A stretch of 64,000 nt of DNA from Demequina phytophila (GTDB lineage: Bacteria > Actinomycetota > Actinomycetes > Actinomycetales > Demequinaceae): positions 1-64,000 of the forward strand of contig NZ_BBLW01000003.1 in NCBI RefSeq assembly GCF_000971135.1. Direction: 5' to 3'. How positions within the stretch are numbered: the first letter of the stretch is position 1; each line of letters opens with the position of its first letter. This document shows positions 46,781 to 50,900 of this stretch, one piece after another. The translations under genes and the position numbers were made by a program. The notes under the pieces were generated by a model. It was not told the DNA's origin, made no database searches, and worked only from the letters and a program-made list of their open reading frames with translations.

Positions 46781-47950
46781 TCAGCGGCTCGCGCGACGGT
46801 CCCTGCCCACGACGACACCGACCACCAGCTGGAGGGTCGCGAAGCCGAGCAGCAGGAGCAGCGTCGGGGTCCACGAGCCCGTGGACTCGGCGAGCACGCC
46901 CGCGAGAACGGGCCCCGCAGCGGCGAGGAGGTAGCCCACCGACTGCGCCATTCCCGACAGCTGGGTGGTCTCCGAGGGCGTCCTCCCCCGCAGGCTCATG
47001 AGGGACAGCGCCGTGACCAGCGACGCACCCGACCCGAGACCTGCGACGGTGATCCACAGGACCGCCGCGTCGGGGGCGAGGATGAGGCCCGCCGTGCCGC
47101 CGGCGACCAGGACCGTCGCGAGCACCGCCGCGCCCCTCTCGCTGTCCGGTCGCATCGCGAGGGGGATGAGCAACCCTCCGGCGATGCCGACGATCTGGTA
47201 GACGAACAGGTGGATGCCCGCGGTGTGCGCCGAGACCCCGAAGGACGCCTCGATGGTGGGCAACCATGTCACCAGGACGTAGAAGCTGGTCGCCTGCAGC
47301 CCCATGAATCCGGTGACGAGCCACGCGGTGCCGGATCGCCAGACGCTCGCGTGTGCGAGGTCCGCGTCCGCGATGCGGGCCTCCGGATCGTGGCCGACGC
47401 GCGTCCGCAGCCACCACACGCACGCGACGAGCGCGAACGGTGCCGCCCACACCCCGAGGGACAGGCGCCACGTGCCGACCTCGGCCAACGGCACCGCGAC
47501 CGCGGCACCGACGGCGGCCGCGCCGGCGATCACCGCGGAGTACGCCCCCGTCGCGACCGCCACCCGATCGGGGAAGTCGCGCTTGACAATCACCGGGACG
47601 AGGACGTTGCCGATCGCGACGGTGGCTCCGATCGCCGCGGTGCCCACCCACAGTCCCGGCACCCCAGTCCACGACCGTACGACGACACCGACGACGAGTC
47701 CCGCGAGCGCCGCGAGGAGCGTCCCCTCGGCGCCCCACCGCCGCGACAGGCGATGCACCACCGGCGACACGGCCGCGAAGCCAAGGAGCGGGAGCGCGCC
47801 CAGCAGGCCGAGCGCGCCCTCGCCCAGGCCCAGCTCGGAGCCGATGTCGCCCAGCACGGGCCCCACCGAGGTCTGCGCCGGGCGGAGGGTGAGCGCGACC
47901 AGGTAGACCGCGAGCGCGGCGACCAACGCCCCTCTCGAGCGGCGGGTCAC
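46781..47950 (-). CDS. CynX/NimT-type MFS transporter
   Basis: Twelve-helix MFS transporter of 389 aa, last gene of the GGDEF/EAL operon. The pattern LRPAQTSVGPVLGDIGSELGLGEGALGLLGALPLLGFA at the N-terminus marks the CynX/NimT branch (cyanate, nitroimidazole or similar exporters). GTG 47950 overlaps the DUF5317 stop by 4 nt. Substrate unknown. Confidence 0.87.
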   Translation of the reverse strand: MTRRSRGALVAALAVYLVALTLRPAQTSVGPVLGDIGSELGLGEGALGLLGALPLLGFAAVSPVVHRLSRRWGAEGTLLAALAGLVVGVVVRSWTGVPGLWVGTAAIGATVAIGNVLVPVIVKRDFPDRVAVATGAYSAVIAGAAAVGAAVAVPLAEVGTWRLSLGVWAAPFALVACVWWLRTRVGHDPEARIADADLAHASVWRSGTAWLVTGFMGLQATSFYVLVTWLPTIEASFGVSAHTAGIHLFVYQIVGIAGGLLIPLAMRPDSERGAAVLATVLVAGGTAGLILAPDAAVLWITVAGLGSGASLVTALSLMSLRGRTPSETTQLSGMAQSVGYLLAAAGPVLAGVLAESTGSWTPTLLLLLGFATLQLVVGVVVGRDRRASR

Positions 47951-48522
47951 CCTTCCGCGCGGGCGACCGGCGCGTCGTCCCCCGCGCGAGCGTCGCCGGC
48001 GGACCGCAGGGGCCGCGACGACGACCAGGCGACGATGGCGACGCCGACGACGATGAGCACGTCGCCGACGCTGAAGGTGTTCGACAGCGGCAGCGGGTCG
48101 GGCCACGCGAACACGTCGCCCAGCCACGGCAGCACGGGGTCCTCGATCACGGCGGTGTTCGCGAACGCGTGGTCCGGGTCGATGCCGGCCGCGGCCGTCG
48201 CGGCGGCGCTCGCGGGCAGGACCCCGCCGTTGAGCGCGATGGTGACGCCGTTCGAGATCGCACCCGCGGCGACCACGAGGGTGCCGCGCACCTCCCGGTT
48301 GAGCCACAGGAACGCGAACGCGGCCACGTAGGTGCCGACGTGCAGCACCTCGGACAGCGCCCCGGGGAGGTGGACATCGATGATGACGATCTGCAGCACC
48401 AGCGAGGCCCAGATGAGCCACGCCCACCGCCACCGGCGCAGCAGCAGCCCGGCGGGCCAGCGTCCGGCCAGGAGCGGGGAGAGCACCGCGATCACGCAGG
48501 CGGCGAGCACGAGCACGGTCAC
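47947..48522 (-). CDS. DUF5317 membrane protein
   Basis: A 191-aa protein with five hydrophobic segments and the family phrases ISNGVTIALNGGVLPASAAA and NTFSVGDVLIVVGVAIV. DUF5317 genes are often beside c-di-GMP or HD-domain signalling genes, as here. GTG 48522 overlaps the GGDEF/EAL stop and its own stop overlaps the MFS start (GTGA at both ends), so expression is tightly linked. Confidence 0.85.
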   Translation of the reverse strand: MTVLVLAACVIAVLSPLLAGRWPAGLLLRRWRWAWLIWASLVLQIVIIDVHLPGALSEVLHVGTYVAAFAFLWLNREVRGTLVVAAGAISNGVTIALNGGVLPASAAATAAAGIDPDHAFANTAVIEDPVLPWLGDVFAWPDPLPLSNTFSVGDVLIVVGVAIVAWSSSRPLRSAGDARAGDDAPVARAEG

Positions 48523-50603
48523 ACGCTCCGGATGGGGCCGGTGGTCGGCTCGCCGGACTCGGCGGTGGCGACGCCCTGCTCGGTGCCGAACACGCGGTCC
48601 AGCGCCGACGCCTCGACGGGCCGGCCCAGGTGGTAGCCCTGGCCGATCACGTGGCCGAGGCCGCGCAGCGCGGTCACCGTCTCGGCGTCCTCGATGCCCT
48701 CCGCGACCACGCGAAGGTCGAGCGCGAGCGCCAGCGCGATGGTGGACCGCACGATGATGAGGTCGTGGTGGTCCGCGCCGATGTTGCTGACGAAGGACCT
48801 GTCGATCTTGAGCTCGTCGATCTCGAGGCGGCGCAGGTAGCTCAGCGAGGCGTTGCCGGTGCCGTAGTCGTCGATCGCGATCGACACCCCGAGCCGGCGC
48901 AGCGCGTGGAGCACCAGGTCCGCGCGCGCGGGGTCCGAGAGGATCGCGGTCTCCGTCACCTCGAGGACGAGGGACGATGCCGGCACGCCGTGGCGCGTGA
49001 GGGCGGCGGCCACCTGCTGCGGCAGGCCCTGGTCGGACAGGTGTCGCGCCGAGAGGTTGACGGACATGCGGAGGTTCCGCCCCGACGCGTGCCAGCGCGC
49101 CAGCTGGGCGAGCGCCGTCTCGAGGACGAACGCGGTGACCGGGAAGATCAGCCCCGAGTTCTCCGCGAGCGGGATGAACTCGTCGGCACGGACCGGGCCG
49201 CGCTCGGGGTGGCGCCAGCGGACGAGCGCCTCGACGGCGACCGCGCGACCGTCGGTGAGGTCGTACTGCGGCTGGTAGACCACGTGGAGCTCGCCCGTGT
49301 CGAGGGCGGTGCGCAGGTCGGCGAGAAGGCGGAGGCGCTCGACCGTGTTGATGTCGAACTCCTGGGAGAAGGTGCTGATCCGGTCGCGCTCGAGCTTGGC
49401 GTGGTAGAGCGCGATGTCGGCGTTCTTCATGAGGGTCTCGCCGTCGTCTCCGTGCAGCGGCGCGACGGCGACGCCGGCGCTCGCGCGGACGAGCAGCTCG
49501 AGGCTCTCGACGTGGACGGGGGCGTCGAGCGACGCGAGCACGTCGCGAGCCACCTGTCGGGTCTGGGCGAGGTCGCCGCGGACGACGACGGCGAACTCGT
49601 CGCCGCCGAGCCGGTGGACCGAGGCCCCCTCCGGGGCGATCTCGAGCAGGCGCGCGCCCACCTGCCGGAGGATCTCGTCGCCCACGGGGTGGCCGAGAGT
49701 GTCGTTGAAGTCCTTGAAGTGGTCGAGGTCGACCAGCACCAGGCCGGGACCTCCGAGACGAACGGGGCCGGACGAGTCGAACGCATGCTCGAGCTGGTAA
49801 TACAGATGGCCGCGGTTGCCGAGGCCGGTCAGCGAGTCGTGCGTCGCGTCGTGCGCGTGGCGCGCGGCGGAGGCGGTGAACAGGTGCGCCGCGATCACGG
49901 GCGGCACCAGGAGCGCGAGGGTCGCGACGCCGTCGGCCGCGACATCGGCCGCGATGCCACCGATGGTCAGCAGGACGATGTGGGTGACGAAGGCGTGCCA
50001 GGACTCCTCGCGCAGGGCGAGCGACAGGGGCTGCGACGTGGCAAGAGAGACGACGCCCGCCACCAGGAACCAGTTCACGGCGACCATCGCCGTGCCGGCG
50101 ACAAGCAGCGCGCCGATGCTGTCCCCCGGCCCGATGGTCGACACACCGAGGAACGGGATACCGGCCAGCCACGTGTACACGGCGCCAGCGGCGACCACGC
50201 TCAGCGCGTACTGCGAGATGTTGAACAGCGACTTCTGCCAGGGGCGGCGGTGAAGGATGTCGTCGAGAAGGCTCGCGATGACCTGGACGAGCACCGCGGC
50301 GCCCACGCCGGAGACCGCCAGCAAGGCAAGGATGAACGGCGCCGAGGTCGAGAGCGTGCGCTCCTCGCCACCCTCACGGATCAGCCGGATCGGCTTCACC
50401 TCGCCGAAGATCGCCGCGACCGCGAGGAAGACCGCGGACCCGAGCAGCGGCTGGTCGACGACGTCCGACCAGGACGTGCCGGTGAGAACAAAGGCGACTC
50501 CGGCGATGCCGAGCGCGCCGATCACCGTCACATAGACGGCAAGGCGCGAGGGCGGTGCGGGGAGTCGCCTCCCCGCACCGCCCTCGCTCCGAGGTGGGAT
50601 CAC
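48519..50603 (-). CDS. GGDEF-EAL protein (c-di-GMP synthase/phosphodiesterase)
   Basis: Membrane-bound c-di-GMP enzyme of 694 aa. About eight hydrophobic segments form an N-terminal sensor (20-245). The GGDEF domain has an intact GGDEF at 333-337. The EAL domain has E458-A-L and every catalytic residue I could check: N in SVNLSARHL, E in VLEVTETAI, DDYGTGNAS, K in ELKIDRSF, E in VAEGIED and Q in GQGYHLGRP. Both activities are therefore possible. Start GTG 50603 overlaps the stop of the small peptide gene. Confidence 0.92.
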   Translation of the reverse strand: MIPPRSEGGAGRRLPAPPSRLAVYVTVIGALGIAGVAFVLTGTSWSDVVDQPLLGSAVFLAVAAIFGEVKPIRLIREGGEERTLSTSAPFILALLAVSGVGAAVLVQVIASLLDDILHRRPWQKSLFNISQYALSVVAAGAVYTWLAGIPFLGVSTIGPGDSIGALLVAGTAMVAVNWFLVAGVVSLATSQPLSLALREESWHAFVTHIVLLTIGGIAADVAADGVATLALLVPPVIAAHLFTASAARHAHDATHDSLTGLGNRGHLYYQLEHAFDSSGPVRLGGPGLVLVDLDHFKDFNDTLGHPVGDEILRQVGARLLEIAPEGASVHRLGGDEFAVVVRGDLAQTRQVARDVLASLDAPVHVESLELLVRASAGVAVAPLHGDDGETLMKNADIALYHAKLERDRISTFSQEFDINTVERLRLLADLRTALDTGELHVVYQPQYDLTDGRAVAVEALVRWRHPERGPVRADEFIPLAENSGLIFPVTAFVLETALAQLARWHASGRNLRMSVNLSARHLSDQGLPQQVAAALTRHGVPASSLVLEVTETAILSDPARADLVLHALRRLGVSIAIDDYGTGNASLSYLRRLEIDELKIDRSFVSNIGADHHDLIIVRSTIALALALDLRVVAEGIEDAETVTALRGLGHVIGQGYHLGRPVEASALDRVFGTEQGVATAESGEPTTGPIRSV

Positions 50604-50710
50604 GCCCACTTATACCCAGCGCCGACGATCACGGCGATGGCGACGAGCGTGCCGGTGCTCGCGGACGCGCGAACGACGGTGCTCTCCTTGAATGCGTTCC
50701 ACTTGCTCAT
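50600..50710 (-). CDS. 36-aa peptide at the head of the GGDEF/EAL operon
   Basis: Encodes MSKWNAFKESTVVRASASTG followed by a hydrophobic segment and a basic-aromatic end (GAGYKWA). Evidence that it is real: GGGAG 6-7 nt before the ATG and a GTGA overlap with the GGDEF/EAL start, the same coupling used for the next two genes. One membrane span or a signal-like export segment is possible. It could be a pheromone precursor, a regulator of the enzyme or a leader peptide; none is proven. The 190-bp gap upstream (50711-50900) has no other gene I can support. Confidence 0.65.
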   Translation of the reverse strand: MSKWNAFKESTVVRASASTGTLVAIAVIVGAGYKWA

Positions 50711-50900
50711 GGTGTTCTCCCTCTGCTCGAGGACTCCGCCATGGGCGAGGCGACGCCCCGCCTGACCCTCGGGCTCGCTGAAGGGATGAGCCCAAGGAAT
50801 GACATCGTCCTACCTGGTTGTTGGCTGGAGGACCCAACCGAGGCACATTCTTGCGCAACAATCGTCGCCGCACCAGCGTCTATTAGCACTGTCACAACGA

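Follow-up and report, generated by a model that had tools for sequence, protein, structure and literature searches.

A family of small hydrophobic peptides encoded 5' of MASE9-type membrane sensors in Actinomycetota

What could a gene of 36 codons contribute to an operon that encodes a membrane enzyme of cyclic di-GMP (c-di-GMP) metabolism? The question is raised by a stretch of 64,000 nucleotides from Demequina phytophila (contig NZ_BBLW01000003.1, positions 1 to 64,000), hereafter the window. The original prediction, made from its letters, described a tiny gene with its own ribosome site that is chained by GTGA overlaps to a c-di-GMP enzyme with an eight-helix sensor, a five-helix DUF5317 protein and an MFS exporter, parts that would together make a complete peptide or small-molecule signalling circuit. 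The features of the locus are as follows.

50711..50864, reverse strand: structured 5' leader RNA before the peptide gene, 154 nt (covariance model R1)
50717..50721, reverse strand: Shine-Dalgarno sequence GGGAG of the peptide gene, 6 nt 5' of the ATG, read from the sequence
50600..50710, reverse strand: gene of the 36-aa peptide MSKWNAFKESTVVRASASTGTLVAIAVIVGAGYKWA (ATG start, homologs, codon-level selection)
50607..50609, reverse strand: conserved enzyme start (GTG) within the peptide codons K34-W35, an 11-nt overlap
50543..50590, reverse strand: perfect hairpin directly 3' of the peptide stop, in the 5' coding region of the enzyme (-52 kcal/mol, z -6.3)
48519..50609, reverse strand: enzyme of 696 aa with MASE9-like sensor, GGDEF and EAL domains (Pfam; motifs GGDEF, EALVRW and other catalytic ones in the sequence)
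49836..50609, reverse strand: membrane sensor part of the enzyme, aa 1-258, predicted S-component fold (AF2 model and structural alignment)
47950..48522, reverse strand: DUF5317 protein with five predicted membrane helices (PF17248, 92 bits against a cut-off of 25)
46781..47953, reverse strand: MFS transporter with a GTGA overlap with DUF5317, accessory (PF07690; not conserved in the genus)

Judged by comparison between genomes, the 36-aa frame is a real gene. The ATG with GGGAG 6 nt upstream bears out the predicted ribosome site, a similar motif stands 5' of the peptide genes of relatives, and a homolog is found in 39 of 47 Demequinaceae genomes, including 38 of the 44 within the genus Demequina, where identity ranges from 49 to 83% and almost all peptides are exactly 36 residues long. 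Eight residues (M1, K3, W4, T21, A31, G32, K34 and W35) are invariant in 35 aligned Demequina peptides, giving the motif M-x-K-W ... G-A-G-x-K-W-x, and position 33 and the last residue differ between species. Third codon positions are free to vary at the invariant residues, and selection is purifying (pN/pS 0.42 over 98 close pairs; by part 0.55 in the N-terminal part, 0.37 in the core and 0.27 in the tail). This selection, together with conservation in 39 genomes, places the gene far beyond chance. Pfam and NCBIfam models gave no match to the peptide above cut-off; among the sub-threshold matches, which include LptM, AftA_N and TrbC were considered as identities and taken as hydrophobic look-alikes, since they concern a minority of the members. 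A conserved cysteine, sought as the ring residue of AgrD-type peptides, is absent from the 35 Demequina peptides. One genome, G120, has the sensor and DUF5317, and its peptide gene is a possible remnant (ARTKWW; L303:3360-3800, reverse strand).

The GTGA overlaps that had been described between the enzyme and DUF5317 (48519-48522) and between DUF5317 and the MFS gene (47950-47953) are present. The junction of peptide and enzyme is built otherwise: the conserved enzyme start is the GTG at 50607-50609, and the alternative GTG at 50603, which would yield a GTGA overlap in the window species, depends on its last peptide codon. The hexamer AAGTGG, encoding K34-W35, occurs in all 33 distinct peptide coding sequences, and its internal GTG matches the reading frame of the enzyme at 14 of 15 directly readable loci, with a few exceptions in a further check. 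The C-terminal KW is not merely the price of this start codon, because [KR]W also ends peptides whose genes do not overlap the next one.

The sensor half of the window enzyme scores 19.3 bits against MASE9 (PF20972), under the cut-off of 24.3 (E 0.0011), and the same model matches 18 of 19 Demequina orthologs (best E 8.7e-9); by sequence, the window sensor probably belongs to MASE9 or near it. Its AF2 model (pLDDT 81, pTM 0.79) has about seven long helices, not the eight first proposed. The best 19 structural matches of the model are all ECF S-components, with Z from 9.6 to 14.7 (NikM/CbiM 14.7 and 12.8, RibU 12.6, FolT/BioY/ThiT/PanT about 9.6-11.4), and the next unrelated chain reaches Z 5.6; Foldseek returned weak E-values (best 2.5e-3). 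The sensor is thus predicted, from a model, to have the fold of an ECF-transporter S-component. This fold is known in other membrane receptors, those of the 5TMR type with GGDEF, EAL or kinase outputs, in an account that does not mention MASE9 (PMC11109136). Some Demequina carry tandem MASE9-GGDEF-EAL paralogs, apparently without peptides of their own (L035, L037, L049).

The conservation of the small frame beside GGDEF-EAL and DUF5317 genes in relatives, which the original prediction had named as its check, was found: the peptide, the sensor half and DUF5317 are found together in 39 of 47 family genomes, and the other eight lack all three. Genes of one operon are lost together, so that this co-occurrence is not independent evidence; the linkage also holds outside the family. 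A search of the rest of the order with the sensor profile A3 found further GGDEF-EAL proteins. Among the 16 sensors with the best scores (E below about 1e-26), 14 have the peptide gene 5' of them, and DUF5317 is often at the same locus; six more distant sensors had neither peptide nor nearby DUF5317. One Kineosporiaceae-like family has an additional peptide gene 5' of DUF5317, away from the sensor.

The pairing extends through the phylum. Among 296 actinomycetotal genomes, DUF5317 is found in 93 and MASE9 in 96 (about a third each), both together in 58 (odds ratio 7.0, the genome of the window being counted as sensor-positive), and of 131 DUF5317 genes, 46 have a MASE9 gene no more than 4 kb away. 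Near 70 MASE9 genes, peptides were sought as frames of 20-42 aa that have a Shine-Dalgarno sequence and a hydrophobic core and end in G-A-x-x-[KR]-[WFY] or nearly so. Under a strict rule (-450 to +30 of the MASE9 gene start; the loci themselves gave a background of 0.010 per 480 bp), a peptide was recognised at 23 of the 70 loci against about 0.7 expected; one or two may be chance. Relaxed criteria and reading by eye raised this to 38 of 70, for example MKARITILLTTLAALLLSGGAHWRW and MKVRLITMASALVALFAVAGANWRY, some in tandem; no peptide was recognised at around half of these loci. The tail at the very C-terminus is G-A-x-x-[KR]-[WFY] across the phylum, its strength there being partly by construction because this motif served as the anchor when the C-terminal positions were tabulated. 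At five loci (L197, L199, L205, L215, L223), two near-identical peptides of 20-26 aa stand in tandem before MASE9 genes and end in GSTVRW or CSTVRW. Inside the phylum loci, which are merely 3-7 kb long, no correlation of peptide with DUF5317 was seen (p 0.58).

From these comparisons, the peptide is a member of an undescribed family of hydrophobic peptides of 20-37 residues, encoded 5' of membrane sensors in many Actinomycetota. Literature searches on MASE9, on DUF5317 and on small peptides with c-di-GMP sensors returned no earlier description; DUF5317 was not mentioned in the literature searched, and the word MASE9 was found just in an unrelated colorectal-cancer paper. The outputs of the 70 sensors are HD (40), the ATPase of histidine kinases (HATPase, 25) and GGDEF/EAL (4), which indicates that the peptide goes with the sensor and not with c-di-GMP synthesis, so that the tie to a c-di-GMP enzyme does not extend to most far relatives. 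Conservation of the small frame, together with peptide-sensor pairs in many distant lineages, gives good support to the view that peptide, membrane sensor and DUF5317 work as a unit. To this extent the proposed circuit stands. Its exporter part is possible but not general: the MFS gene adjoins DUF5317 only in the window and in a small number of close relatives, a clade-specific arrangement.

DUF5317 itself has the five predicted helices that had been proposed. Its invariant residues, counted over the sequences covering each site, are N75, N91, N98, P103, D136, S151, G153 and D154, and its arginine pattern would place the loop 98-151 outside. A model of modest quality (pLDDT 68) gave no significant Foldseek or VIA fold match. 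An LspA-like protease was considered on a motif resemblance and a weak NCBIfam match; it was set aside as a weak candidate, at an hhalign probability of 12% and with no fold match for that same model, whose modest quality limits the comparison. In far relatives, DUF5317 is fused to an MFS domain (MFS_1/MFS_3; L159:3472-5301, L161:5839-7719, L160:6420-8219), and at two of these three loci the fusion gene is divergent from a MASE9 histidine kinase gene.

Two RNA structures flank the peptide gene. The leader contains two covarying helices, in which both partners have changed in 16 of 19 pairs and whose scores are reached by 0 of 500 shuffles. Of the 39 Demequinaceae genomes with the peptide, 38 have a single R1 match at this position, with nothing above noise elsewhere apart from one extra weak match in G009; no Rfam family matches the leader, which is possibly a riboswitch or attenuator. 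Behind the peptide stop, a hairpin of 15-20 bp occurs at 34 of 36 Demequina sites (mean z -5.07 over all 36 against -0.55 at controls), its arms differing between species with the pairing maintained, and it falls in the sequence for the N-terminal end of the enzyme, which is poorly folded. Outside the genus it is found in some lineages (mean z -1.17 against 0.01). Rfam matches around 50540-50591 were below threshold and arise from the hairpin itself. No T run follows the hairpin in the window, which makes a terminator unlikely; protection of the mRNA or reduced coupling is the more likely role, as judged from sequence. Both Demequina sites that lack the hairpin belong to one genome, G037, which has ten tandem peptide genes (L038:5958-7352). 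Seven of these copies are short forms of 22-23 aa, for example MDKWTLTNDKLANVASTGWKWN, with KW at both ends and no hydrophobic core. The hairpin after the peptide gene, together with a ten-gene array in the genome without it, suggests that cells need more peptide than enzyme and that the peptide is made in excess over the enzyme.

How might such a peptide act? Our leading reading, held tentatively and somewhat short of even confidence, is that it is a dedicated regulator or ligand of the MASE9 sensor, forming a module with DUF5317, and that the resting state of the sensor is set by membrane-resident, excess peptide. S-components bind their ligands at the outer face. The basic N-terminus of the peptide, and a tail that follows a core of roughly 17 small hydrophobic residues, point to an N-in, C-out orientation, with the GAGxKW tail at the outer face of the membrane, where it would share a side with the pocket of the S-component fold and the conserved loop of DUF5317. 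Present in excess over the sensor, the peptide would bind the sensor, DUF5317 or both and so set the resting state; an outside stimulus would then change the complex and pass to the output domain, here GGDEF-EAL and elsewhere HD or histidine kinase. In our view the peptide for the most part remains in the membrane and acts within its producer cell. Conservation along its whole length, strongest in the tail, fits an intact binding partner and favours residence in the membrane. Release is favoured by the excess, the tandem copies and the small residues that precede the tail, and a high dosage would also suit a released ligand. The short copies of G037 speak against membrane residence, which would need a core, and the loci where no peptide was recognised, about half of those with MASE9, as well as the tandem Demequina paralogs, speak against a sensor regulator in general. 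Taken together, the sequence data appear to suit a regulator resident in the membrane no less well than a secreted signal.

The secreted signal is a serious possibility to which we nevertheless give clearly less credence. Here the peptide would be a pheromone precursor resembling a signal sequence, cleaved near G-A, perhaps with the help of DUF5317, and its tail of 4-6 residues (GYKWA, HWRW) would be bound outside by the sensor and report cell density. The tail at the very C-terminus throughout the phylum, the variation of position 33 and the last residue between species, the near-identical tandem copies in several genomes, the signs of peptide excess and the fusion of DUF5317 to MFS transporters are all in its favour, as is the binding of small ligands by S-component folds, known for 5TMR receptors (PMC11109136). 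Against it, conservation also covers the remainder of the peptide (invariant K3, W4 and T21), which would be unusual in a signal sequence that is discarded; the tail shows the strongest conservation and is not diversified between species; a positive charge just after a cleavage site is unfavourable; and DUF5317, the candidate processing protease, gave no significant fold match. In its widest form, this would be an undescribed peptide-signalling module of the whole phylum, in which signal-sequence-like precursors of 20-37 residues are made in excess and handled by DUF5317 and a MASE9 receptor senses the x-x-[KR]-W tail, with c-di-GMP, HD or histidine-kinase outputs; we regard it as conceivable but doubtful.

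A structural role is improbable. The sensor would then bind a vitamin- or metal-like ligand with the peptide as its accessory subunit, as CbiN is for CbiM in cobalt transporters. NikM/CbiM transporters employ an additional small membrane protein, and these metal S-components are the best structural matches of the sensor (Z 14.7 and 12.8), yet a subunit in 1:1 stoichiometry would need neither a ten-gene array nor excess expression. It is very unlikely that translation of the frame matters and its product does not, as in a leader peptide that serves coupling or attenuation of the enzyme: the overlap with the enzyme start and the flanking leader RNA and hairpin would suit it, but selection acts on the residues, other lineages have separate, non-overlapping copies 50-200 nt before their sensors, one copy stands before DUF5317, and the gene has been amplified into arrays. 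A chance frame, of which GC-rich DNA holds many (as does the list of open reading frames of the window), can be practically dismissed given its conservation in 39 genomes under purifying selection.

The peptide offers a first concrete handle on what MASE9 sensors detect. If it is their ligand, it would represent a new kind of direct coupling in bacteria between a peptide and both second-messenger enzymes and kinases.

Several known systems share parts of this arrangement. The SHP and PrgQ pheromone precursors are 20-35 aa long, basic at the start and hydrophobic, have their function in the C-terminus and adjoin the receptor gene, and by analogy all these features would match the Demequina peptide; their receptors, however, are the cytoplasmic Rgg and PrgX, whereas the neighbour here is a membrane MASE9-GGDEF-EAL protein, and the Demequina-type tail ends in KW or RW. 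The Agr system joins a peptide, a multi-pass membrane protein and a membrane sensor in a single operon, and the Demequina locus appears to have the same three-part make-up as AgrD-AgrB-AgrC. It differs in that its peptides are without a conserved Cys, DUF5317 is a Pfam family separate from AgrB, and MASE9 outputs include GGDEF-EAL and HD. CbiMN and NikMN also combine a protein of S-component fold with a small partner in the membrane, but they are transporters and not receptors, and CbiN is larger than the Demequina peptide. In the S-component-fold receptors (5TMR histidine kinases), the ECF S-component fold serves for sensing at the membrane, and the outputs are GGDEF, EAL or kinase domains; MASE9 is a Pfam family distinct from theirs, and no peptide partner is described for those receptors (PMC11109136). 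Finally, MgrB, of 47 aa (PMC8404706), offers with PhoQ what may be a likeness in action, a peptide with one helix and a length of tens of residues that acts on a sensor in the membrane. The mgrB gene lies outside the phoQ operon, whereas the Demequina peptide gene lies within that of its sensor, and the putative partner of the Demequina peptide has a predicted S-component fold.
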